Assembly: GCA_028874985.1 (NCBI GenBank)
Contig: JAPPGI010000052.1
Location: 1 to 64,000 of the forward strand
From: Gemmatimonadota bacterium
Lineage (GTDB): Bacteria; Gemmatimonadota; Gemmatimonadetes; Longimicrobiales; Gaopeijiaceae
Reading direction: 5' to 3'
DNA length: 64,000 nt
Under the pieces are notes generated by a model that saw only the letters and a list, made by a program, of their open reading frames with translations, had not been told where the DNA came from and ran no database searches. Position numbers and translations under genes: made by a program. Shown here one piece after another: positions 166-13,343 of this stretch (position 1 is the stretch's first letter; the number at the start of each line of letters is the position of its first letter).

Positions 166-1320
166 ATGAAGGTTGCTGATCCTCGTAGCGAAGTCCCCGA
201 CGTCCCGGTCGGTCAGACCCTGACGCACGAAGGACGCTCAATCGCCGTGGTCGACCTCGGACGGGACGCCAGCGTCGCACTGCGGGAATCCTGGCCCGCT
301 GACCGGCCCTTCCAGTCCGGCGGAGCGGTGGACAGCAAGTGGCTCCTTCCGATGCTGGGCACAGGGAGCACCGCCGCGTCGTCCCTGCTCGCTGGCAACG
401 TCTTCCTGGCGACCGCCAATCCCGCGACGCTGATGACCATCGGCACCGGGGTGGGATCGGCGGTCATGGGTCCGACCGGGATCGTTGCGCAGGCGCCGTT
501 CGTTGCCGCCACCAGTGCCCTGGTGCCGGTTGTCGCACCCATGATGCTCTTCGCGACCGTTTCGTCGGTCATGCTGTGTGCACGCCTCGATCGAGCACAG
601 CAGACGCTCGGCCGTCTCTCCGAAGTGGTAGAGCGCGTTCGAGCCCTCCTGGACGCCGAAGATTACGCACGGCTCGAAGCCGCGGCCGAACGGATTGATC
701 AAGTCCGGTCCGAATTCGAACACTCCCGCCGGTTCGCCAGCGACGTATCGGCCAGACTGGCAAAGATCGATCACGACGTGAGTGTCGTGCGCTCCAAGTA
801 CGGGCTCCTTATGAGCGGGGATGTGAAGTCGGAGGACGGCGCACGGGCCGCGGTTTCGGATCTCAACCGGTTCTTCTTGGCCAGTCTTCAGGATGTCCAG
901 ATCGATGTGCTCCAACTGCTCTTGGCGATCCAGAACGATCCCGATGTCGTCGAGTTCCGTCTCTCCCAGCTCCGGGAGAAGCTCCAACGGTACGCCGAGC
1001 GATTCCGGCAGGTCCGCGATGACGACCGGATCGGAGCCTACCACAGGGAGTTGAAGGAGCAACTGGGCAAGTCAAAGTTGGGCATCATTCCGCCCCCTCG
1101 CCTGTGGTTAGGGAAGACGTCCGCGAGGATACGCAGGGTTCGCGAGATTCGGAGGGATTTCGAGGCGGCGCAGACGCGTGCCGCGCAGTGGATCGATGCG
1201 ACCGATGCCGTCAGGGACGAGTCACGGCGGCCATCCCTCGTATTCCATCGCGAGCCCGGCGGCGAGCGAGCGTTGCGGGCTCGTCACACGCACGATGTTC
1301 GTCTGGAACGGGTGGCGTAG
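166..1320 (+). CDS. Hydrophobic-core, coiled-coil protein of unknown function (BrxL operon gene 1)
   Basis: I do not recognise the family. The 384-residue product has a polar N-terminus, a long Gly/Ala/Val-rich hydrophobic block at about residues 59-139 that could form two or three membrane helices, then helical, heptad-like segments at about 140-215 and 260-345, and a basic tail. This layout resembles membrane-inserting effectors or alpha-helical pore-forming proteins, but that is architecture only. The start at 166 has GGAG 8 bases upstream. The stop TAG shares its last base with the GTG start of the next gene, so the two are probably translationally coupled and act together with BrxL downstream. 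It could equally be a structural or scaffold subunit. Confidence 0.7.
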   Translation: MKVADPRSEVPDVPVGQTLTHEGRSIAVVDLGRDASVALRESWPADRPFQSGGAVDSKWLLPMLGTGSTAASSLLAGNVFLATANPATLMTIGTGVGSAVMGPTGIVAQAPFVAATSALVPVVAPMMLFATVSSVMLCARLDRAQQTLGRLSEVVERVRALLDAEDYARLEAAAERIDQVRSEFEHSRRFASDVSARLAKIDHDVSVVRSKYGLLMSGDVKSEDGARAAVSDLNRFFLASLQDVQIDVLQLLLAIQNDPDVVEFRLSQLREKLQRYAERFRQVRDDDRIGAYHRELKEQLGKSKLGIIPPPRLWLGKTSARIRRVREIRRDFEAAQTRAAQWIDATDAVRDESRRPSLVFHREPGGERALRARHTHDVRLERVA

Positions 1321-4300
1321 TGCGCGGTAGACGGGCGGGCGAACGCATCGTCAGGGAACGGGCCCGCCGTCAGGTGCGCACCTTCCTCGACGAGCTGAGG
1401 AACGGGACGACGAACTACCGGACCGTCGCCAGCCTGGGCGATCAGGTGGCGCAGGAGTACAGGGAACGGGCCGTCCTGGAGTTGTTGCAGAACGCCCACG
1501 ATGTTCTGGGGGGCAGCGACGATCCCGGGCAGGTCTCCTTCGTCCTGACCTCGTCTCCCGGATTGCCCGAGCTGCTGATCGCCAACAGCGGGCGGCCCTT
1601 TCGCCGCGAGGACTTCAGCGGAATCTGTGAACTCGCCCAGAGCCCCAAGGACCCGAACGAGAGCGTAGGCAACAAGGGGCTTGGCTTTCAGAGCGTGCTG
1701 GAGCTCTCAACTTGCCCGGAGGTGTGGTCGACCGCCCCTTCACACGGCGAGCCCGCCTTCACGTTTGGGTTTCACCCCGAGGTGCGCGAACCGATTGGCC
1801 GAGTGGCGCAGTCGCTATTCAAGGACGGTTTGTCGACCGACCCGGAGTTCGGTGAGGAGCCGGTTGTGGACTGGTCGGAGAGGCAGATCGAGGAATATCG
1901 TCGCCGCGTGTCCGGGAACGGCGGGTCCGCGGCAAAGATCGGGAAGTGGCTCGCGGAGGAGGTCAGGTACCTCTCGCCCTATGTGATTCCGCGCACTCTG
2001 GGTAGTGCCCCGTCCTGGGTCGCGAGGCTGCTCGACGACGGCCATGTGACGGTCATCCGCCTCCCGTTGGACGGAGGACGGATGGGCAGTCGGAAGAAAG
2101 CCGTCAATTCGGTCAGAAGCCAACTTGAGGCGCTGGACGAAGCAGCGATGGTGTTCCTCCAACACCTTTCCGTGCTCCGCACCGAGGTGGTGGACGGCGA
2201 AGTGGTCGAACTCACGCGGCGGGTGGAGCCCACGCAGGGGCTTCCCGGCCATGGGAGGGATGAAGACCAAGCGGTTCGCGGTGCACTTCACACGCGACTT
2301 CGGGTAGCGAGGACGACGGCGAACGAGAGCGGGGCTCCCGGACGCTTGTTCCATGTCTGGAGCCGCATCGCAGGCGGCAAGGACCAGCCCGGAGAGGCGG
2401 AGCGGATCAAGAAAGCCGTCGAACACCTGCCCAACCGATGGCCCGAGATGCGGAGAGTGGACGTCTCTGTAGCGGTGGAGGACGCACGGGAGGCACCGGG
2501 GGGCGCATTCGTCATCTTCCTGCCAACCACGATAAAGACCGGGCTGCGAGCCCACGTCAATGCCCCGTTCTACGGCACGTTGGACAGGAAACACATCGAC
2601 TTCGGCGACGAATACAACGATCTCATCCTCGAATTCCTGACAGACCTGATGCTCGATGCGGTCGTCGAGCTCGTCGAAGGTCCGGCAGAACGCTGGCAGG
2701 GCAGGGCTGTGGTCGATCTGCTGGGGCAGGCCGGTCCGCCGCCGGCCGACGACCCTGAGCTGGCGCGCCGACTTCGCGAACGCGCTCGTGGCCGCGAGCG
2801 CGTTCTTCCCCTCGAACAGCTGGCTCTTATCCTGTGCGACGGAGGCTGGCAGCGGTCGGATGTCGCACGAACGATGCCGAAGATTCCGTGCGACGATCCC
2901 TTCGGCGAGGCGGAGTGGCGCAGACACGCCGGATTCGTGGTGGCTTCGTCCGCGCTGGACGAACGGCGCGAAGCCGTGGAGGACCTCCTGCGAGCGCTTG
3001 AAGGCTCGCCGGACCCGACGGAGGCGGAGTGGGCGGAGACTCTGGCCGAAATGGCCAGATGGGTCGGTGACGGCCAGCCGGAACCGGCCTGGGACGACTT
3101 TCTCCGGAGCGCGCTGGCCGTTCTTCCCTGGGAGCTGACGTCCGAGCCGGCCAAGCCTGAGGCCGATCCGCTTCGTGCGGCGAGGTTCCTGCCCACCTCG
3201 GACGGTAGACTGTGCGCTGTGGACGACGATGTCCGGGTGTTCTTTCGTCCACGCCAAGGTGACGACACGGCGGGTTTCGCCGATTCGATCCCCGACTGGT
3301 TGAGAGCGGGGATCGCATTTCTCCATTCCGGCGTGAAGACGCTTTCGCTTGTCGTTGACGGGAACAAGATGCTGAACACGCCGGTGCAGAAGTTTCTCGA
3401 CGGACGGTTCGTGCGGAGCTTCCGCAGAGAGGACATTCTCCGTGCGGTAGTCGACCTGTCGCCGAAGCTTCGGGTTGCGCACGGAACGACCGAAGCGATC
3501 GCGTGTGCCGAGATCCTGAGCTGGACGTTGAAGCTGGTGGGCGAAGAGGAGCAGGAGGGGCTGGTGCCGCTTCTCGGCCAACTTCCGGTCGCTTGCATCG
3601 GCGGCTGGTTTGCAATGAAAGATGCCGTCTTCGGACCGGGGTGGGACGGACGCTCTGGCGACCATTTGGCGCATCTGGCCGCATGCCTGCCCGAAGGGGA
3701 AGGTGAGGGGCTGCTTGGCACTGCGCTGCTTCCGCCTGGCGATTCGAAGTGGAATGGGGCCGAGGCGGCATCTGCCAAAGACGACCCGGAGACAGAGACG
3801 GCCGAAGTGACGGTGCGATGTAACATGTTAGCGCGCGCCGGCGTGGTGGAGGGGCTTCGGCTCATCAAGCTCGAGCCAACGATAGTCTTCTGGATGAAGA
3901 AGGCGAATCCGGAGCTGCCGGAAGAGGCTCCGGAGAGGATACCGCAGGGCTCGTGGGACCATTGGAGAGATTCGGTTCGGGCCCAGATCGACCTTGTCTT
4001 TGTCGATTGGCACGAGTATGAACTCGATGAAATCAGGCAGCTTCCAGTACGCGACCTGCTCCATCGCGAGGATCTTGCGGACTCCGCGCGCCGGGCCGTG
4101 GCCAAGCTGATTCTAAGCTCAATGGCGAATTGGGAGGTGGGTTGGGACAAAGTCACGCTCAGGAAGAAGAGCGGCCGTACCTGGTCACAGCAAATCACAT
4201 CACCCCTCAAACACTGGCTCTCGACCCTCCCCTGGCTGGATGACCGTACAGGCAAAGAGCACACGCCCCAGCGAGAGCCGCAACCACTGCACCAACGATG

Positions 4301-7154
4301 GCTCGTGCCGGAGTCCCTACTGCGGTTGAACAAGGGGCACTTTCGCCACCTGTCGCCGCTGTCGCAGGGGTTGGCCCGTCGGCTGGCGGAAGACGAGGAG
4401 CTGCTTGAGGCTCTGGCCGGGCGGCGACGTGGGCCTACTGCGGACCGAGGGGAAGGGCTCGGCCTCAACATCTACCCCACCGAGGAGGACGAGCGCACAG
4501 GTCCGGCTCTGCTCGACGCTCTTGCGCGCGTCGTCCAGCTGCTCACCCGCGATGGGCCGAAGAACGGTGGAATGGGCCCGGTGGATGAAGCCGAGGCGGA
4601 TGTCGCGATGCCCGCCGGCGGGTTCGACGTACTCCTTGGCCAGATTCGTCATGCCTGGAGTCACTTCGACCCGAGCCCGGAGCCTCCCAAGCGCTTGAAG
4701 CTCCCGGAGCGCTTCGTGGTTCGGACAAGGCCGTACAGATTCCAGATTCGCACCGCCGCCGACCTGGGGGACGTCTACCTGCCGGACCACACTGCACGCA
4801 CAAGGTCTCTCCGCGAGCATCATCATCCGATCCTCGCGATGTGGCCCAAGGAAGCCCGCGGCGCAATCGGCGACCTCCTTCACGAAAATGGAGCAAGGCG
4901 AGCATCCGAGCTTGAGGAGCAATGCCTAGTCGATGGCCACCATGCCGCCGGTCTCGCCGGCAGAGCGCAGGGGCTCGAGCGGCGCTTCGAGTGGCTCCCG
5001 GTGGTCCTGCTTTCTCTGGCCGCGCACGGCGGAAACAACCCGCGAGGACCCACGACCGAGCGTTGGATGAAGGCTAGGGAACGCCTCCAGCGTGCTCGGG
5101 TGCTCCTCTGCGACTCCATCAATGTGGAGCTCTTGGATTCCAAGGGAGAGAGTGTTGCTCGCAGTGAACCGGACGCCTATTGGTGGCGTCAAGACGATAA
5201 GTCCGCCAGCGCAGGTCCCGGTGTGTCCGGGATCCTCCTTCTGAATCGGGACTTCGCCGCCTCCGGCCTATATGAGAGATTCGCACCCGCCGCTCAAGCG
5301 ATGCTTGGGCGTCAGGACCTACTCAAGGACCTCCGTCTCGTTCTCGGTGCGTTGGCTGGAAGTCCCCAACCAACCCACTCTCAGGTCGGAAAGGCCCTGG
5401 GCCGGGCGGAAATCGACGGATTCGACGTAGCCAACATTCGGGGTCAGTGCGGCATCGGGCCGCTGCGCGACCGCATTCGGCCTGTCTTGGCGCTCTTGAG
5501 CGTTTCCGACGGTGGTTTCGACGAGGTGTCGGACCTCGCCGGTTTGACCGCATGGCTGGCCCACAAATTCGAAGTCCCGCAGTGGTCCGCCGAGGAACTG
5601 TTGGCGGCCGCTAGGGAGTGCTACGACGACGCTGACATGGGGTATCGGGCCTGGCAGGCGCTGGGCGATGCCGCCGAGCTACCGAAGTGGAACGAGGCGC
5701 TGAAAGCGCTTGGCGGCGACTACGAGCCGTGCCGCAACGAGCACGCCGAGGCTCAGGCGAAGCGGTGCCTGTCCGAATCTGCGCCTTTGCTCCGGGCCTT
5801 CGCCCGACATGTCGCCACGAGAGACACCGAGGTGGCCATCAAGGTTCAGGGCGCGCTGTTCGAGAGGGTCGTCCATGTGCACGAGGGTGCCGTGAACGAT
5901 CCGCAACCGCGCCATGTCGACGGATGGACCGAGAAATTCTGGCAGGTGCCGTTCGAGGCGGTCCTCGGGGTGCTGCGCGCAGGCTACGACGGAATCCCCG
6001 AGGCCAAGGGGCACCTTGACCTTTTCGAAGGTGTGCGGAACACGCATGAGTTGCGATCGGCCCTGGAGCGGTTGGACGCGGACCTTGACCAGGACCCGCG
6101 CGAGGTGGCTCGGAACAACCGGGACCGGCTCGATCGGGTGGTCCGCAGAGTGCGGGAGTGCCATGCGGCATGGCTCATGAGGACGAGGGGCGAATCAACT
6201 TCGAGCGCGAAGGATGCCGATCTGTTCCATGCCTCCATGTATCTGCGCGACTGGTCGGACGACGAATTGTTCGAGAGCGCGAAGCAGGTGGTCGCCGATG
6301 ACGACTTCCGGGACAGGGTTGGGGAATGCGCGACAATAGAGGAGATGCTCGACACGCTTGGCCTCACTCGTAAGGACTTGGAGGAGGCGAGGCGGAGGCA
6401 TGAGAAGCGGGATGCCGTCGACGAGCGCGAGAAGAGAACCGTCGAGGTCGCGGGAGAACCCTTCGAAATCGGCGGCCCTGTGTCGTACCGTGAGCTCTTT
6501 GTCCGACTAAGGAACCTCCCGGACCTCCCCGAGCAAGTCGAGGGGATTGGCCCTCCGCCGCCAGGACCAGACAGCGGCGGCGCCACTCGGCCCGGCGTAT
6601 CGGGGGGAAGCGAACTCTCCCGCCGCCGACCCAAGACCGGGCACCTGCACGGCCCGCCCGACCTCCCTGAACTGGTGGGAATCGTCGGTGAAATGCACGC
6701 TTTCCGTTTCCTCCATGACAAGGACAAGTTCGGCATAGACGAGAGCGCATGGGTCTCCGAATCCAGAACCAAGGTCGTGCCCCTGCTCGACGGCGAGGAG
6801 GACCTTGCCAGCGACAGCCTGGGCTACGACTTCCGGTTCACGCACGACCAGGTGACCTGGTGCGTCGAGGTCAAGGCGACAACCGGCGACGGCACGGGAT
6901 TCGACCTGCCGCCGAGCGAAGTCGATGCCGCAACCCGAATTGCCCCGAGGAGGAACGAGCGGTGGCGCATCCTGCGCGTTACGAAAGCGCTCACTAGGAA
7001 GCCCGAGTGCTATTGGCTTCCGAACCCCTTTGAGCCGGGTCCTGGGGAGCGACTCCGACTTCGTCGAGAGGGGGGCGCGACTGTGGAGTACTCTTTGCCG
7101 AAGTCCGCGAAAGGCGACAGCCAACAAAAGACCCGCACCGGAGAGAACGCATGA
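1320..7154 (+). CDS. Giant GHKL-type ATPase with C-terminal DUF3883-like domain
   Basis: This is a 1,944-residue protein. The N-terminus carries the sacsin/NO VEIN version of the GHKL (Hsp90-like) ATP site: ELLQNAHD at 54-61 (N box), NSGRPF at 89-94 (G1) and SVGNKGLGFQSVL at 115-127 (G2). The last ~110 residues look like DUF3883/NOV_C, a domain I recall as related to PD-(D/E)xK nucleases, with YDF near 1836-1838 and ExK at E1850/K1852. The ~1,650 residues between show no domain I can name. I chose GTG at 1320 because it overlaps the upstream stop (TAGTG); an open frame reaching 1104 would overlap gene 1 by 217 bases and adds low-complexity Arg-rich sequence. The stop overlaps the brxL start as ATGA. 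Proteins of this type occur in defence islands; the exact role here is inferred. Confidence 0.85.
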   Translation: MRGRRAGERIVRERARRQVRTFLDELRNGTTNYRTVASLGDQVAQEYRERAVLELLQNAHDVLGGSDDPGQVSFVLTSSPGLPELLIANSGRPFRREDFSGICELAQSPKDPNESVGNKGLGFQSVLELSTCPEVWSTAPSHGEPAFTFGFHPEVREPIGRVAQSLFKDGLSTDPEFGEEPVVDWSERQIEEYRRRVSGNGGSAAKIGKWLAEEVRYLSPYVIPRTLGSAPSWVARLLDDGHVTVIRLPLDGGRMGSRKKAVNSVRSQLEALDEAAMVFLQHLSVLRTEVVDGEVVELTRRVEPTQGLPGHGRDEDQAVRGALHTRLRVARTTANESGAPGRLFHVWSRIAGGKDQPGEAERIKKAVEHLPNRWPEMRRVDVSVAVEDAREAPGGAFVIFLPTTIKTGLRAHVNAPFYGTLDRKHIDFGDEYNDLILEFLTDLMLDAVVELVEGPAERWQGRAVVDLLGQAGPPPADDPELARRLRERARGRERVLPLEQLALILCDGGWQRSDVARTMPKIPCDDPFGEAEWRRHAGFVVASSALDERREAVEDLLRALEGSPDPTEAEWAETLAEMARWVGDGQPEPAWDDFLRSALAVLPWELTSEPAKPEADPLRAARFLPTSDGRLCAVDDDVRVFFRPRQGDDTAGFADSIPDWLRAGIAFLHSGVKTLSLVVDGNKMLNTPVQKFLDGRFVRSFRREDILRAVVDLSPKLRVAHGTTEAIACAEILSWTLKLVGEEEQEGLVPLLGQLPVACIGGWFAMKDAVFGPGWDGRSGDHLAHLAACLPEGEGEGLLGTALLPPGDSKWNGAEAASAKDDPETETAEVTVRCNMLARAGVVEGLRLIKLEPTIVFWMKKANPELPEEAPERIPQGSWDHWRDSVRAQIDLVFVDWHEYELDEIRQLPVRDLLHREDLADSARRAVAKLILSSMANWEVGWDKVTLRKKSGRTWSQQITSPLKHWLSTLPWLDDRTGKEHTPQREPQPLHQRWLVPESLLRLNKGHFRHLSPLSQGLARRLAEDEELLEALAGRRRGPTADRGEGLGLNIYPTEEDERTGPALLDALARVVQLLTRDGPKNGGMGPVDEAEADVAMPAGGFDVLLGQIRHAWSHFDPSPEPPKRLKLPERFVVRTRPYRFQIRTAADLGDVYLPDHTARTRSLREHHHPILAMWPKEARGAIGDLLHENGARRASELEEQCLVDGHHAAGLAGRAQGLERRFEWLPVVLLSLAAHGGNNPRGPTTERWMKARERLQRARVLLCDSINVELLDSKGESVARSEPDAYWWRQDDKSASAGPGVSGILLLNRDFAASGLYERFAPAAQAMLGRQDLLKDLRLVLGALAGSPQPTHSQVGKALGRAEIDGFDVANIRGQCGIGPLRDRIRPVLALLSVSDGGFDEVSDLAGLTAWLAHKFEVPQWSAEELLAAARECYDDADMGYRAWQALGDAAELPKWNEALKALGGDYEPCRNEHAEAQAKRCLSESAPLLRAFARHVATRDTEVAIKVQGALFERVVHVHEGAVNDPQPRHVDGWTEKFWQVPFEAVLGVLRAGYDGIPEAKGHLDLFEGVRNTHELRSALERLDADLDQDPREVARNNRDRLDRVVRRVRECHAAWLMRTRGESTSSAKDADLFHASMYLRDWSDDELFESAKQVVADDDFRDRVGECATIEEMLDTLGLTRKDLEEARRRHEKRDAVDEREKRTVEVAGEPFEIGGPVSYRELFVRLRNLPDLPEQVEGIGPPPPGPDSGGATRPGVSGGSELSRRRPKTGHLHGPPDLPELVGIVGEMHAFRFLHDKDKFGIDESAWVSESRTKVVPLLDGEEDLASDSLGYDFRFTHDQVTWCVEVKATTGDGTGFDLPPSEVDAATRIAPRRNERWRILRVTKALTRKPECYWLPNPFEPGPGERLRLRREGGATVEYSLPKSAKGDSQQKTRTGENA

Positions 7155-9214
7155 GCGCACCCGGATTCCAGATGGACCCCCTGGACCACGCTGCCAACGA
7201 GGCCTTCCCCGGCTACTTGGTGCGGAAGGACCTGGTTCGGCGCTACGCCCGCCAGTACCCCGTCCCCACCTACGTCGTCGAGTTCCTGCTCGGCCGCTAC
7301 TGTGCGAGCGTCGATCAGGAAGAAATCGACGAGGGTCTCGCGATCGTTAAGAACCAGCTTGAAGGGCGCACAGTCCGCGCCGCCGAGCGGGAGATCTTCA
7401 AGATGAGGGCGCGCGAGGAGGGCTCCGTCCGCCTCATCGACATCCTGCGCGCCCGCCTGGACGCCAGGAACGACTGCTACCTCGCCGAACTCCCCAGCCT
7501 CGGCCTCCGCGACATCCGCATCGAAAGCGGGTTCGTCACCGACCACCAGCGGATGCTTGCCGATGGACTCTACGCCGAGGTCACCCTGGAGTACGACCCG
7601 GTGATCGCCCAGGAGAAACAGGGACGCCCGTTCAGCATCGCCGCCATGCGCCCCATCCAGATGTCGAGCCCATCGGTCCTCAAGGTGCTGGCCAAGGGAC
7701 GGCGCCGCTTCAACACCGACGATTGGACCGACTTCCTCCTCCGGTCGACCGGCCTGGAGCCGTCCGCGCTGGACGATCGGGCCAAGCGTGTCGCGCTGCT
7801 GCGCCTGATCCCCTTCGTCGAGCGCAACTACAACCTCGTCGAACTCGGCCCCCGCGGCACGGGCAAGAGTCACGTCTACCAGCAGCTCTCCCCGCACTCC
7901 CACCTGCTCTCGGGCGGCAAGGCCACCGTCGCGAAGATGTTCGTCAACATGGCGAACGGACAGCGCGGCCTGGTCTGCCAGTACGACGTGGTGTGCTTCG
8001 ACGAGGTCGCCGGCGTCTCCTTCGACCAGAAGGACGGCGTCAACATCATGAAAGGGTACATGGCGTCGGGCGAGTTCAGCCGGGGCAAGGAGAGCATCCG
8101 CGCGGAGGGGTCGCTGGTGCTGGTCGGCAACTTCGACGTTTCGGTGGAGCAGCAGCAGCGCATCGGCCACCTGTTGAGCCCGTTGCCGAAGCAGATGCGG
8201 GACGACACGGCCTTCCACGACCGGATCCACGGCTACGCTCCGGGCTGGGACTTCCCCAAGCTCAATCCCAGCGAGCACCTCACCGACCATTTCGGCCTCG
8301 TCAACGACTTCCTGAGTGCATGCTGGACGAAGCTGAGGGACACGACGCGTCTTCCGCTCCTGCAGAATCGGGTTTTCTGGGGCGGCGCGCTGTCCGGACG
8401 GGACATCGAGGCGGTCCATAAGACGGTCTCCGGGCTGATCAAGCTGTTGTTCCCGGATGGCGGGATGGAGGTGGACGACGAGGATCTGGAGTGGATGGTG
8501 CGGCTGGCGCTGGAGTCGCGGCGGCGCGTGAAGGAGCAGCAGAAGCGGTGTCTTAAGGCCGAGTTCCGGAGCACCCACTTCTCGTACACGCTGGGTGTGG
8601 ACGGGACGGAGCAGTTCGTGGCGACGCCAGAGCTTCGCAGCGACGAGGTGATCGATAGCGACCCGTTGCCTCCCGGGCAGGTGTGGGCGATCGGGCCGGG
8701 GGTCGAGGGTACCGGGCCGGGGCTCTACCGCATCGAGGTAGTCGTGGGGCCGGGGGCGGGCGGCGCGAAGATCCTCAACCAGCCGGTGCCGCCGGCGTTC
8801 AGGGAGAGTGTCCGGGTGGGGGAGCAGAATCTGTACACGGGGGGGAAGGCGTTGGTGGGGGACCGCGACGCGCGGGCGCACCAGTACACGGTTCAGATGC
8901 AGCCGCGGGACAACGACAAATCGGGGACCGGGCTGGGGTTGCCGGTGCTGGCGGTGATGGTGGGGGGGTTGCTGGACAGGAAGACTCGTGGCGCGACCAT
9001 CATCGTGGGGCCGCTGAACCTGGGGGGATCGCTCGAGCGGATCGCAGATCCAGTGGCGATGGCGGAGCTGGCGGTGGACAAGCAGGCGACGGTGCTGCTG
9101 ATGCCGGTCGGGGCGCGGCGGGAGCTGATGAATCTCGAGGACGATGTCTGGACGAAGGTGAACATCGAGTTCTACCGGGACGCGCAGGACGGGGTGTTCA
9201 GGGTGTTGGAGTAA
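7151..9214 (+). CDS. brxL: BrxL-like AAA+ protein with Lon-like C-terminal domain
   Basis: The 687-residue protein matches BrxL (COG4930), the AAA+ DNA-binding factor of BREX phage-defence systems. Walker A is GPRGTGKS at 233-240, Walker B is VVCFDEVAG at 280-288, a sensor-1-like Asn is at 327, and an Arg-containing DRIHGY follows at 357-362. A Lon-protease-like fold spans about 535-687. Around KSGTGLG (590-596) the usual GPSAG serine motif is altered, and the position expected for the Lon lysine is not Lys, so peptidase activity is doubtful. GGAGAG lies 7 bases before the ATG, which overlaps the previous stop (ATGA). None of brxA, brxB, brxC, pglX or pglZ is in the window, so the GHKL/DUF3883 giant is the evident partner. 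Confidence 0.9.
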   Translation: MSAPGFQMDPLDHAANEAFPGYLVRKDLVRRYARQYPVPTYVVEFLLGRYCASVDQEEIDEGLAIVKNQLEGRTVRAAEREIFKMRAREEGSVRLIDILRARLDARNDCYLAELPSLGLRDIRIESGFVTDHQRMLADGLYAEVTLEYDPVIAQEKQGRPFSIAAMRPIQMSSPSVLKVLAKGRRRFNTDDWTDFLLRSTGLEPSALDDRAKRVALLRLIPFVERNYNLVELGPRGTGKSHVYQQLSPHSHLLSGGKATVAKMFVNMANGQRGLVCQYDVVCFDEVAGVSFDQKDGVNIMKGYMASGEFSRGKESIRAEGSLVLVGNFDVSVEQQQRIGHLLSPLPKQMRDDTAFHDRIHGYAPGWDFPKLNPSEHLTDHFGLVNDFLSACWTKLRDTTRLPLLQNRVFWGGALSGRDIEAVHKTVSGLIKLLFPDGGMEVDDEDLEWMVRLALESRRRVKEQQKRCLKAEFRSTHFSYTLGVDGTEQFVATPELRSDEVIDSDPLPPGQVWAIGPGVEGTGPGLYRIEVVVGPGAGGAKILNQPVPPAFRESVRVGEQNLYTGGKALVGDRDARAHQYTVQMQPRDNDKSGTGLGLPVLAVMVGGLLDRKTRGATIIVGPLNLGGSLERIADPVAMAELAVDKQATVLLMPVGARRELMNLEDDVWTKVNIEFYRDAQDGVFRVLE

Positions 9215-9253: not shown

Positions 9254-9645
9254 TTATCGCGGACCGGCAGTCGGAAACCATCCTCGCAGTGTGTTCAGGA
9301 GCTTCCTGAAAGCAGGATCCTCACAACCCTCGACGGAGACGCTCGCGGCGATCTCACCGAATCGCCTTCCATGGCAGCCTCGATCTCTTCACGGGATGCA
9401 TCGCTACCGCAGCCGTGCCGGTCCAACACCACCAAGCCGTATCGATGTGTGCGCAGAAACTGTCCGAGGAAATTGGTGGCGTCTCCCCTGCAACCGGCAT
9501 CACGACCTGGGTGCCGGGTGATGTCGCACCGCAGCTCTCCGACGCCGAGAGCAGCGGTGCGCCGAAACAACTTGGCCAGGGCCTCTTCGATGTCCCTGTC
9601 CGCAACGAGTGCGACAAGCTTGTCGGATCCAGCTTCGTGCCTCAC
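9254..9645 (-). pseudogene. Broken partner gene of the AAA ATPase (internal deletion and frameshift)
   Basis: A GTG start at 9645 overlaps the ATPase stop as GTGA, and the first ~94 codons read like the small acidic protein usually paired with such ATPases: VALVADRDIE, then HPGRDAGC and LVVLDRHGCG. This frame then runs into 23 unrelated codons and stops at 9295. The adjacent frame, starting near 9361 and ending at a TAA at 9254, encodes a plausible conserved C-terminus (FGEIAASVSV, DPAFRKLLNTLRGWFP). I recall full-length relatives at roughly 200 residues, so about 70 residues of the middle appear to be missing at the junction near 9361. A short functional 116-residue product cannot be excluded. 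The gene converges with brxL, leaving only 39 bases between them. Confidence 0.6.
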
Positions 9646-10940
9646 CCAACCACGCCCTTGGCGAAGAGCACATCCATATTGATCGATCCCTGCCAATCCG
9701 CCAGCACCGGATGCTCGTTTCCCCGAATTATGTCCGTCGCGCCCTCCCGGTTCTTCTCGAAGCACAGTACCTCGCGTGGATCCACCGACGCGAGCAGCGT
9801 CGGCGAATGCGTGGCCACGAGGACCTGGGCATCATACGCCGACGACAGCGAATCGCGGATTCCATCCACCGCCAGCGGGTGGACCCCGTTCTCCGGCTCT
9901 TCGAGCAGATAGATTTCACGGTTGTCCGGCAGATAGGCGAGTAGTGTCAACGCCAGGAGCCTCATGGTTCCGTCCGACGCCATCCAGGACGGCACGTCCA
10001 CACCGGTATCGTAGCGCAGTCGCAAGTACGCGTGCCGGTCCTCCGGCCGGTCGATTACGCGAATACCCCGAAGATCCGCGAGTACGGTCCGAACATGGCC
10101 AAGCCATTCCTCGAAGTCGGCTGGGTGCTCATCCTGAAGCCGCTTGATGACCCACGGCAGGTTGGAACCGTCGGTTGCGAAACCGTTCCTGCCGTATTCA
10201 GGGGGACTCGCTCGGCGCATCTTGACGCTGTCAAGGAAGACCGGCTTCACACCGTTCTCCAGCTTTCGCTTCACGAGAGTGGCCATCGGGAACTTCTCGG
10301 GAGATTCCGGCAGGTTCCCCAACGTGGACCGGTTGGGGCCGAACGCGATGGTCGTCACCCATCCCTTCCCCGCTCTACTCTCGGTCTCGACGCTGAACGC
10401 GTCTGTTCCCCGAGCCGATTTGCTGAGTATGGTCCTCTTTCCACGCCGCCCACCGCCCACGAGTATTGTGGACGGAGGTGCTGGGGGAGCGGGGAACAAG
10501 GTCCTTTGCACGCTTTGCTGGCGCCTCCGCGCGGGCATCAGCAGCCCCCGCTCCGACGCGATACGCATTCCCCGTTCGTCTTCGCTGATCCCCACCTCAT
10601 ACCGAAAGACTCGAAAGTTCTTCTCGGCAGGCAGCCGCTTCCGCAACTCCTCCGGCACCTCCAATTCGATGGCCAGCTCGAACCCCATGTCGCGCTCAGG
10701 CCGCCCCCAGACCAGATCCTGGAAATTCGCGGTTCGGCTTCCGACCGCCATCTCCAGCCCGTCCCGAACCAAATCACCCAGAAAGGCGATGGCGTCAAAG
10801 AGCGTACTCTTGCCGCTCGCGTTGGGGCCGATCAACACGTGGAATCTGTCGAGCGAGACATCTACGTACCGCAGACAACGGTGGTTGCGGCAGCGATGAG
10901 CGACCCATCTGCGCTTGACAGGCAAGACGAACATGGCCAT
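9642..10940 (-). CDS. AAA (ABC-type) ATPase, SMC/OLD-like defence family
   Basis: The 432-residue predicted ATPase is of the COG4637/AAA15 type. Walker A is GPNASGKST at 38-46, an ABC-signature-like SDGTMR lies at 322-327, Walker B is IYLLEEPENG at 343-352, and the switch histidine is in ATHSP at 376-380. There is no Toprim nuclease domain, unlike OLD proteins, so its activity would normally be supplied by the downstream partner, which is broken here. Starts are ATG at 10940 or 10934; both lie inside the palindrome of the divergent antitoxin gene, whose own ATG is only 9 bases away. Its promoter would therefore have to sit within the antitoxin gene, or translation begins further in. Substrate unknown; a role in phage or plasmid defence is inferred from family and context. 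Confidence 0.8.
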   Translation of the reverse strand: MAMFVLPVKRRWVAHRCRNHRCLRYVDVSLDRFHVLIGPNASGKSTLFDAIAFLGDLVRDGLEMAVGSRTANFQDLVWGRPERDMGFELAIELEVPEELRKRLPAEKNFRVFRYEVGISEDERGMRIASERGLLMPARRRQQSVQRTLFPAPPAPPSTILVGGGRRGKRTILSKSARGTDAFSVETESRAGKGWVTTIAFGPNRSTLGNLPESPEKFPMATLVKRKLENGVKPVFLDSVKMRRASPPEYGRNGFATDGSNLPWVIKRLQDEHPADFEEWLGHVRTVLADLRGIRVIDRPEDRHAYLRLRYDTGVDVPSWMASDGTMRLLALTLLAYLPDNREIYLLEEPENGVHPLAVDGIRDSLSSAYDAQVLVATHSPTLLASVDPREVLCFEKNREGATDIIRGNEHPVLADWQGSINMDVLFAKGVVG

Positions 10941-10949: not shown

Positions 10950-11249
10950 ATGAAAAGGGCTAGCGTCAGCGAGGCGAAGAACGGGCTCAGCGGATTACTG
11001 AGCGAGGTTCGGCGCGGCGAGTCGGTGCTGATCACGCACCGCGGGCGGCCCGTTGCGCGAATCGAACCGTGCCGGGTTGCCGGCCCGGACGCGGAGGACG
11101 CGATTTCCGAGCTCCTGCAGCGGGGCGTCGCAGCCCCGCCTCGCGCCCCACTCGATGTCGAGCGCTTCCTGGGTGTCCCCGCCGCTCGGCTGACCGGAGG
11201 TGTCAGCGCCAGCGGGATCGTCGTGGCCGAGCGCGGCGCACGGCGTTGA
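10950..11249 (+). CDS. Type II antitoxin, Phd/YefM family
   Basis: The 99-residue protein opens with a typical Phd/YefM DNA-binding fold: MKRASVSEAK, then SGLLSEVRRGESVLITHRG and VARIEP. The disordered C-terminal half (about residues 45-99) would wrap the toxin. The stop TGA overlaps the TTG start of the PIN-domain toxin (TTGA), so the pair is coupled. The start at 10950 matches the family N-terminus exactly; no Shine-Dalgarno sequence precedes it, in line with a leaderless transcript. The antitoxin should neutralise the adjacent toxin and repress the operon through the palindrome at its own start. Confidence 0.85.
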   Translation: MKRASVSEAKNGLSGLLSEVRRGESVLITHRGRPVARIEPCRVAGPDAEDAISELLQRGVAAPPRAPLDVERFLGVPAARLTGGVSASGIVVAERGARR

Positions 11250-11665
11250 AATACTGGGACTCCTCGGCGCTGGTGGCGCTCGTCGTGGACGAGCCGCGGA
11301 GCGCCGAGCGCCGGGCGACGATCCGCCGCGATCCGGCCATCGTGACGTGGTGGGGCAGCCGGATCGAATGCGCGTCGGCACTGAACCGCCTGGAGCGGGA
11401 CAACCGCTTCGAGAGCGACGGGTTCGACCGGTCGTTGGACCAGCTCGGGCTGCTGGCCGGGAGTTGGATCGAGATCGAGCCCCTGGAGCAGGTGCGCAGG
11501 CGCGCGATCAGGCTGCTGCGGCTTCATCGGCTGCGGGCGGCGGACGCGCTGCAGCTGGCGGCGGCCCTCGCCGCTTCGGGCGAAGACCCCCGGCGGCTGG
11601 ATCTGGTCAGCAGCGATGATCGTCTCTCGGCCGCGGCGCGCCGCGAGGGGTTCACGGTTCTGTGA
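11246..11665 (+). CDS. vapC: PIN-domain ribonuclease toxin, VapC family
   Basis: The 139-residue PIN-domain protein has all four acidic residues expected of an active VapC nuclease: D5 in KYWDSSALV, E41 in RIECASAL, D100 in RAADALQL and D124 (or D125) in SSDDRL. VapC toxins cleave RNA, often initiator tRNA or rRNA. I chose the TTG at 11246 because it overlaps the antitoxin stop and gives the canonical N-terminus; the open frame extends further upstream only as a shadow of the antitoxin gene. The paired antitoxin is Phd/YefM-like rather than VapB AbrB-like, a common mixed pairing. Confidence 0.85.
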   Translation: MKYWDSSALVALVVDEPRSAERRATIRRDPAIVTWWGSRIECASALNRLERDNRFESDGFDRSLDQLGLLAGSWIEIEPLEQVRRRAIRLLRLHRLRAADALQLAAALAASGEDPRRLDLVSSDDRLSAAARREGFTVL

Positions 11666-11702: not shown

Positions 11703-13343
11703 GTGAGCGCCCGACCGCGGCCGCCGGACTTCCACAAGGAACTCACCGCCCGGATCCTGGCGGCTCTCAGGAAGGGCGTGGTTCCCTGGCGGCGGCCATG
11801 GCGCTCGTTGACGCCGACTCGGTACACCGGGCTCCCGTTCACGGGAACCAACGGTCTCGTGCTGTCGCTCGCGGCCGACTCGAAGGGCTACGCGAATCCG
11901 TTCTGGCTGACCAGGGCCCAGGGACGCCGGTGCGGCGCGAAGGTCCTGGACGGCGAGGAGGGCACGCGGGTGCTGCGGCCGCTCCCGTTCCCGGTCCACG
12001 ATCGCACGAAGGGTGCGCGGGACCGTCCACCCATCCCGCTCATGGTGCCCTACGAGGTGTTCAACGGCGAACAGTTCGACCGGCTGCCGCCCAGGTTCCG
12101 CGTCGATGAGGAGAGTCCCGCTCCCGGTCCGGAAGACAGGATCGGCGTCGCCGAGGACTTCTTCGCGGCGGTCGGAGCGAAGATCGCGCCGGGCGGCGAC
12201 AGCGCGGCCTACGATCGCGCCGGGGACATCATCAGGATGCCGATTCTCTCCCGCTTCGACGATCCGGTCGGCTACTACTCCACACTCGCGCACGAGGCCA
12301 TCCACTGGACCGGCCACCGCAGCCGGATGGGTCGCGAGTCCGGCGTCCGCTTCGGCGACCCGGCCCACGCCTTCGAGGAGATCGTCGCCGAGCTCGGCGC
12401 CTCCTTCGTCATGGGCGGTCTCGGCCTGCCCTGCCGGGTCGAACGGGATCACGCGCCGTACATCGGTCACTGGATATCGGCGTTGCAGAATGACGAGAGG
12501 GCGATCCACCGCGCCGCCTCCCACGCGCAGAGGGCCGCCGACTTTCTCCTCATCAAGACGGTCGCCGGGCGCGTGCGAGAGCTCGCGGAGCGACCTCTGG
12601 ACCACCGCGCCTGGATCGTGGTCTACCTGGACGTCGTGGAGATCGGGCCACATCCGCTCGTCGGCGCGGTCGGAGTGGACGCCGAGGGAACCAAGCGAGT
12701 GCTGGGGCTGCGCCAGGCCGGGAGCGACCCGTACGACCGGTCGGCCGCCGCCGAAGAGCTGCTGCGGGACGTTGTGCGCCGTGGCGTCCGCACGGACCGG
12801 CGGCGCCTCGTCGTGACCGACGGGTCCGCGCAATTGCGAGACGCGGCGGTCGCGGCGCTCGGCGGGGACACCTACGTGCAGGCGTGCCGGCCGCACCGCG
12901 AGCGCGAAGTCCTTTCGCGCCTGCGCCCGGGGAACGAGCGCGACAAGGCCAGGAAGGCGCTCCGGGAGGCGTGGGCGGGTGGGGCGGACGGAGGACCGCG
13001 GCTGCTGCAGCGGCTGGCCGGACGGCTCGCCCGGGATGGACGGGACGGGGCGGCGAACCGGCTCCGTGCCGGATCGGGCGAACTCTTCACGGTGGACCGG
13101 TTCGGACTGGACCCGAGGCTGGCCGCGAGCCTCGTCACCACCGGCGTGATCGACTGCGCGAGCTCGGGGCTGCCGCGCCAGATCTGCGGAGTGCCGAGCT
13201 GGGGCGACCGCGAGATGGCGCTCGCGTGGGCGGCCGCATCGTTTCTGGAAACGGAGCGCCGATACATGAGAATCCGCGGCCACCGGCGCCTTCAGCTCCT
13301 CAAGGACCACCTGGACCAGATCGAGATGCCGTTCGGCCCGTAG
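11703..13343 (+). CDS. ArdC-type antirestriction/zincin protein fused to IS256-family transposase core
   Basis: The 546-residue chimera (GTG start) has an ArdC-like N-terminus, the ssDNA-binding domain of plasmid antirestriction proteins, with FHKELTARILAAL then VPWRRPW at about 10-33. A zincin domain follows, with HEAIHWTGH at 197-205 and a downstream EEIVAELGA helix near 225-233 that should supply the third ligand. The ArdC match runs through AQRAADFL (275-282). From about 283 the sequence becomes an IS256-type transposase: VVYLDVVEIG (D310), AVGVDAEGTKRVLGL, VVTDGS (D373), CRPHRERE and a C-terminal GDREMALAWAAASFLETERR. The acid expected in the family's IES motif is Asp (D484) instead of Glu. 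The transposase N-terminal DNA-binding half is absent. The frame is open throughout. It follows vapC by 37 bases. Confidence 0.75.
   Translation: MSARPRPPDFHKELTARILAALRKGVVPWRRPWRSLTPTRYTGLPFTGTNGLVLSLAADSKGYANPFWLTRAQGRRCGAKVLDGEEGTRVLRPLPFPVHDRTKGARDRPPIPLMVPYEVFNGEQFDRLPPRFRVDEESPAPGPEDRIGVAEDFFAAVGAKIAPGGDSAAYDRAGDIIRMPILSRFDDPVGYYSTLAHEAIHWTGHRSRMGRESGVRFGDPAHAFEEIVAELGASFVMGGLGLPCRVERDHAPYIGHWISALQNDERAIHRAASHAQRAADFLLIKTVAGRVRELAERPLDHRAWIVVYLDVVEIGPHPLVGAVGVDAEGTKRVLGLRQAGSDPYDRSAAAEELLRDVVRRGVRTDRRRLVVTDGSAQLRDAAVAALGGDTYVQACRPHREREVLSRLRPGNERDKARKALREAWAGGADGGPRLLQRLAGRLARDGRDGAANRLRAGSGELFTVDRFGLDPRLAASLVTTGVIDCASSGLPRQICGVPSWGDREMALAWAAASFLETERRYMRIRGHRRLQLLKDHLDQIEMPFGP
12549..13343 (+). 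mobile_element. IS256-family transposase remnant within the chimeric gene
   Basis: These bases encode the catalytic and C-terminal part of an IS256/mutator-type transposase, from just before the first catalytic Asp to the usual C-terminus. The 5' half of the transposase gene is missing, and I found no clear terminal inverted repeats or target duplication around it. It is either an old insertion that fused to ardC or a domain that has been kept for a new use. Confidence 0.65.

Follow-up and report, generated by a model that had tools for sequence, protein, structure and literature searches.

How does an antirestriction protein of the ArdC type come to share a single chain with part of a transposase, and what might such a protein do for the bacterium that carries it? 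The question is posed by a gene at 11703..13343 on the plus strand of a 64,000-nucleotide stretch of Gemmatimonadota DNA (hereafter the window, meaning that whole stretch), in which a preliminary description had noticed ArdC joined in frame to the core of an IS256-family transposase.

One gene joining ArdC to an IS256 catalytic core

The gene encodes 546 aa from a GTG start, with an alternative upstream ATG at 11616, and is supported by the open-reading-frame list, by Pfam, and by the same gene in three further genomes (G020, G014, and G010). From the GTG at 11703 to the stop at 13343 it is one open frame with neither internal stops nor frameshifts, as had been claimed. Its product begins with (i) an ArdC-N domain of ssDNA-binding type (residues 9-103; 11727..12011, plus strand), matched by Pfam PF08401 (ArdcN) at 1.3e-18, continues with (ii) an ArdC zincin metallopeptidase domain (residues 150-274; 12150..12524, plus strand), assigned through Pfam PF18818 (MPTase-PolyVal) at 2.7e-41 and alignment to R388 ArdC (6sna), and ends, from residue ~284, with (iii) a complete IS256 transposase catalytic domain, RNase-H-like and bearing a helical insertion (12552..13340, plus strand), assigned through Pfam and NCBIfam, alignment, and Foldseek comparison with ISCth4. 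In phmmer, 6sna aligned to residues 9-289 (1.7e-52), and Pfam placed Transposase_mut on residues 284-422 (4.5e-9) of the same chain as both ArdC domains; the NCBIfam IS256 model covered residues 284-512 with 75 bits, i.e., below its equivalog cut-off of 150 bits. The transposase match starts only at profile position 141 of 379 (Pfam) or 102 of 338 (NCBIfam), and the fusion is without the N-terminal dimerisation, DNA-binding, and helix-turn-helix (HTH) domains of IS256 transposases.

An AlphaFold2 model (mean pLDDT 71, with low values over the C-terminal stretch beginning at about residue 463) places ArdC ahead of a β1-β2-β3-α-β4-α-β5 RNase-H core plus helical insertion, with D310 in strand 1 and D373 after strand 4. 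Foldseek searches with this model returned R388 ArdC (6i89) first (E 2e-18) and the IS256-family transposase ISCth4 (6xg8) next (E 1e-7); the transposase half alone matched no PDB sequence, the relation to ISCth4 requiring fold comparison. Pfam, NCBIfam, and AlphaFold2/Foldseek thus confirm the claimed architecture in one chain, and the fusion of ArdC with an IS256 catalytic core is real and a single gene. An assembly chimera is ruled out, the junction being common to four separate assemblies.

Pfam domain borders and the AlphaFold2 secondary structure set the junction at about residues 281-286 (12543..12560, plus strand), within a continuous modelled helix (267-296) that leads from the last ArdC helix into the helix before transposase strand 1. 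The transposase part begins about 26 residues before its first Asp, D310, which bears out the claim that it starts just ahead of the first catalytic Asp, and lies near the start of the catalytic domain of ISCth4, whose domains are given as dimerisation (1-56), DNA-binding (56-108), HTH (108-165), and catalytic (from 165) (PMC7780238). All of ArdC therefore stands in the place of the three N-terminal transposase domains, joined at about a domain border. The preliminary view that ArdC's ssDNA-binding domain had replaced the transposase's DNA-binding half is therefore right in that the N-terminal half is gone, but three domains were lost and the ArdC protease domain came too.

The ArdC of plasmid R388/pSa (6i89, 6sna) has the same two domains over its first ~283 residues, with HExxH, glutamate helix, and Tyr conserved; however, R388 ArdC extends no further (297 aa in all) and is encoded on a plasmid, whereas the fusion adds the transposase core and lies in a chromosomal BREX island. 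With IS256-family transposases (ISCth4, 6xg8, and the nearest full-length relatives in G104, G052, and G116) the fusion shares the RNase-H-like domain, the helical insertion, the acidic-triad spacing, and CxxH; unlike them, it is without the three N-terminal domains, has substituted signature residues, and stands where no terminal repeats were found.

Catalytic and signature residues

On the ArdC side, the gluzincin site is intact in the window (H197-E198-x-x-H201, E225-E226, and Y253), corresponding to H201/E202/H205, E228/E229, and Y255 of the R388 protease site (PMC7213743); in G010 it is deleted. For R388 ArdC, antirestriction did not need the protease function (PMC7213743).

On the transposase side, D310, D373, C395/H398, and D484 correspond to ISCth4 D175, D241, C262/H265, and E348 (PMC7780238), with alike spacing in the two proteins, and all are kept in the four copies found within the genus; the copy from outside it (G190) has lost all catalytic acids. 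The notion that the catalytic Glu was mutated away in the fusion was rejected, as the nearest full-length transposases (G104, G052, and G116) also have Asp in the third acid position (TTNxID).

Other signature residues have been replaced. Across 17 regional IS256 transposases 36 residues do not vary; the fusions retain 25-27 of them (27 in the window) and have lost 9-11, as against a loss of at most 4 in leave-one-out controls. Near the active site, DG has become DV, DF, or DI, RCxxHKxxN has become ACxxHRxxE, and TTN has become TTG, and the replacements R394A, K399R, N402E, and N481G are identical in 4/4 genus copies. Within 500 nt of the fusion no clear terminal inverted repeats were seen, only weak, shifted 16-mer matches. 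The fusion is probably not a working transposase; a replaced DNA-binding half, as in the preliminary description, would imply one, and the eroded IS256 residues argue against that implication. Since signature residues were lost with common replacements, we read from the alignments an altered but maintained function other than transposition, although, with the catalytic acids still in place, some catalysis may persist.

Descent of the fusion and its BREX island

The junction was looked for in independent genomes, as the preliminary description had proposed, and is present in at least four others. Among 23 genomes of the genus, four carry the fusion, each a separate assembly: the window's own, G020 (81% identity), G014 (82%), and G010 (80%), the last three being Gemmatimonadota MAGs. 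Judging from their isolate names, these three would be sponge symbionts, the carriers as a whole being related to such symbionts. The fifth carrier among the 394 genomes of the class, G190, belongs to another family and aligns over 348 residues at 43% identity, open across the junction; its copy has decayed, with at least two frameshifts outside the junction stretch. The junction is likewise open in frame in G020 and G014, and in G010 it is present with an internal deletion. Each genome has one copy. G190 groups with the genus copies in both the transposase-half tree (FastTree support 0.98) and the ArdC-half tree (0.977), such that both halves of all five copies form one clade; a single fusion event thus probably preceded their common ancestor, and two independent fusions in two families are not favoured.

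Among 72,556 plasmids and 50,697 phages the fusion was absent, no record covering 80% of the protein, and a scan of viral contigs for the junction found none. The scan of genome contigs used transposase-half patterns and found only the three close copies, missing G190, so that its count leaves room for more remote fusions in other phyla. On G014 contig 49 (L030, 2413-3177) an IS256 catalytic core stands alone, with no N-terminal domains; at 49% identity it is closest to the fusion, and it falls inside the transposase clade. It has lost the second Asp and the third acid while its frame remains open, a DUF3667 gene adjoins it, and it is possibly a second domesticated core.

The genomic setting, missing from the preliminary description, is a BREX island of which the fusion is the 3'-terminal gene in four species of the genus, with brxL close upstream in every case. 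In the window, the order on the plus strand is a TmtA-like protein of sacsin-type ATPase with a NO VEIN C-terminus (1104..7154; 2016 aa; PADLOC TmtA 1.9e-194, NCBIfam P_loop_sacsin), then brxL (7151..9214; PADLOC BrxL 8.7e-275, Pfam BrxL_ATPase 1.1e-124), and, ending 38 nt before the fusion start, a PIN-domain (VapC-like) gene (11249..11665; Pfam PIN 2.2e-7) that is a conserved neighbour and likely forms, with an upstream antitoxin-like frame, a toxin-antitoxin pair transcribed in the direction of the fusion. Between brxL and that pair, an AAA_21/HEC-01A-like ATPase gene occupies the minus strand (9642..10940; Pfam, PADLOC HEC-01A 1e-44). This ATPase gene and the PIN toxin-antitoxin pair separate brxL from the fusion in the window, G014, and G010. 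Directly upstream of brxL stands the TmtA-like gene in the window and pglZ in G014, G010, and G020; the contig begins about 1.1 kb upstream of the TmtA-like gene, placing the rest of the BREX operon outside the view. G014 has brxB, brxC, pglX, pglZ, brxL, and other defence-type genes upstream of the fusion, and G010 and G020 have pglZ and brxL with it.

In every pair, the shared DNA block stops at the fusion stop codon or no more than about 6 nt from it. What follows differs: in the window relA directly follows the fusion on its 3' side, in G014 it comes only after 7.4 kb, and in G010 and G020 the two lie on different contigs, so that the BREX block with its fusion occupies more than one chromosomal address. 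Window positions 9360-10887, the ATPase segment, are 99.3% identical to G014 as against 90-95% in the flanks, which suggests recent exchange of this segment within the island. In G014, the stretch separating the ATPase gene from the toxin-antitoxin pair contains fragments of relA (L028, 8276-8582), the intact relA being the one downstream. In G020, a 53-codon piece of brxL (aa 388-440; L027, 10948-11106, minus strand) lies just before the fusion start and may be left over from either a second brxL copy or a rearrangement that placed the fusion.

Of the 394 genomes, 16 encode a close BrxL (65% or more), and all five fusion carriers are among these 16 (hypergeometric chance of the overlap <1e-6, a value inflated by shared ancestry). 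The fusion is thus consistently linked to BREX, lying next to it in four of five carriers; in G190 the remnant is unlinked, not beside either of that genome's two brxL genes. It is located there between PQQ-dehydrogenase and beta-lactamase-family genes (L054, 9038-10803). Like BREX accessory genes, the fusion is linked to brxL (four species), to pglZ in three, and to pglX/brxC in G014, but it matches no PADLOC model and is present in only 5/16 of the genomes with a close BrxL.

Selection, damage, and the readings of function

The Ka/Ks analysis proposed for the transposase part gave purifying selection and no neutral decay. By NG86, the transposase half has an omega of 0.30-0.47, all bootstrap intervals lying below 1, and the ArdC half one of 0.46-0.80; by YN00, which allows for codon bias, the ranges are 0.14-0.28 and 0.23-0.30, respectively. 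One maximum-likelihood fit gave 0.78 for the G014-G010 pair; we take this fit to have failed, as YN00 gave 0.137 for the same two genomes. When substitution positions were randomised, the transposase half had fewer amino-acid changes than any of 2000 randomisations in 6/6 pairs; for the ArdC half the window-G020 pair was likewise never matched, and the window-G014 pair gave 0.03. Neutral decay of the transposase half is thus rejected for the four genus copies by NG86, YN00, and randomisation alike, and both halves are under purifying selection in these copies, the transposase half slightly more. The fusion gene is constrained yet evolves faster than its neighbour brxL, whose NG86 omega of 0.04-0.07 is several-fold lower than that of the whole fusion gene.

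Recurrence in other genomes and purifying selection uphold the earlier suggestion of domestication, and the reading we favour, tentatively and with slightly less than even confidence, is that of a domesticated IS256 core joined to ArdC, which a mobile BREX island would use as an accessory for antirestriction or DNA handling. An ArdC gene would have been joined once, in frame, to an IS256 catalytic domain without its dimerisation, DNA-binding, and HTH domains, and the product would serve the island as an antirestriction or DNA-escort factor. ArdC-N would bind single-stranded or entering DNA, and the transposase core would serve chiefly to bind dsDNA or a partner and not as a transposase. The fusion may thus shield the island, or cell DNA made vulnerable in its transfer, from restriction. 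Consistent with this are the single frame and one junction in several species, selection on both halves, the kept ArdC protease residues, the shared loss of IS256 signature residues, and a place as last gene of the BREX island, seen in four species and in more than one location. Domestication sits less easily with the three catalytic acids kept in 4/4 genus copies and with a whole-gene omega that far exceeds the brxL value; to find ArdC in a host's defence island would also be functionally odd unless the island itself were mobile.

Damage to the gene weighs against it as well. Three of five copies are damaged, those of the window and G020 being intact: the G014 copy is frameshifted near residue 45-50, where C3 has become C4, an in-frame deletion has removed the protease part (residues 174-290) from that of G010, and that of G190 has its frameshifts and no catalytic acids. 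The damage in G014 and G010 is concentrated in the ArdC half, and this N-terminal damage in two copies keeps decay a serious rival; i.e., a once-useful fusion hitch-hiking with the BREX island and now decaying, with no present function in most carriers. This possibility, which the omega several times that of brxL also favours, we nonetheless consider rather unlikely, given two intact copies, an omega clearly below 1 in both halves, an in-frame deletion in G010, and a transposase frame open in 4/4 genus copies.

An accessory defence role as a regulator or trap directed against transposons or against BREX itself, in which the inert core would compete with genomic IS256 transposases or sense mobile DNA, and the ArdC protease would act on bound proteins in the manner of Spartan, whose protease domain ArdC's resembles (PMC7213743), would suit the defence-island position, the intact protease site, and the IS256 elements in the same genomes. 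It appears unlikely, as the dimerisation domain that would permit trapping is absent, identity between the genomic IS256 copies and the fusion core is only 39-43%, and G010 does without the protease. Doubtful to a slightly greater degree is a working recombinase, in which the ArdC domains would replace the DNA-binding half and a DDD core would cut or join DNA, possibly so as to move the BREX island or with entering ssDNA as its substrate: the conserved acids and C395/H398, an Asp that is normal in the nearest transposases, an island at different addresses, and a shared block ending at the fusion gene are in its favour, but invariant residues beside the active site have changed, no dimerisation domain is left, clear terminal repeats were not seen, and each genome has one copy. 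Least probable of all would be a new class of DNA-processing enzyme, in which an ArdC ssDNA-binding/protease module steers a still-catalytic DDD core, mobilising or installing BREX islands through a single-stranded or protein-linked intermediate.

Our literature search found no description of an ArdC-IS256 architecture, subscription papers and full protein databases lying outside its scope, and ArdC in this form seems not to have been described before. Polyvalent proteins of phages and conjugative elements likewise carry ArdC-N and MPTase domains N-terminally, fused to further domains (PMC5512222), but the carrier here is a BREX island and not a recognised phage or conjugative element; the word "transposase" is absent from the main text of that survey. 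In primates, CSB-PGBD3 also joins a host gene to a transposase domain and is conserved, although it is eukaryotic, derives from piggyBac, and is formed by splicing (PMC3459987).

Ultimately, the fusion appears to be an instance, in bacteria, of a transposase domesticated through the fusion of domains, and its link to a mobile BREX island would place antirestriction and restriction-type defence on the same element. This raises the question as to whether defence islands may carry their own antirestriction factors in order to enter new hosts.
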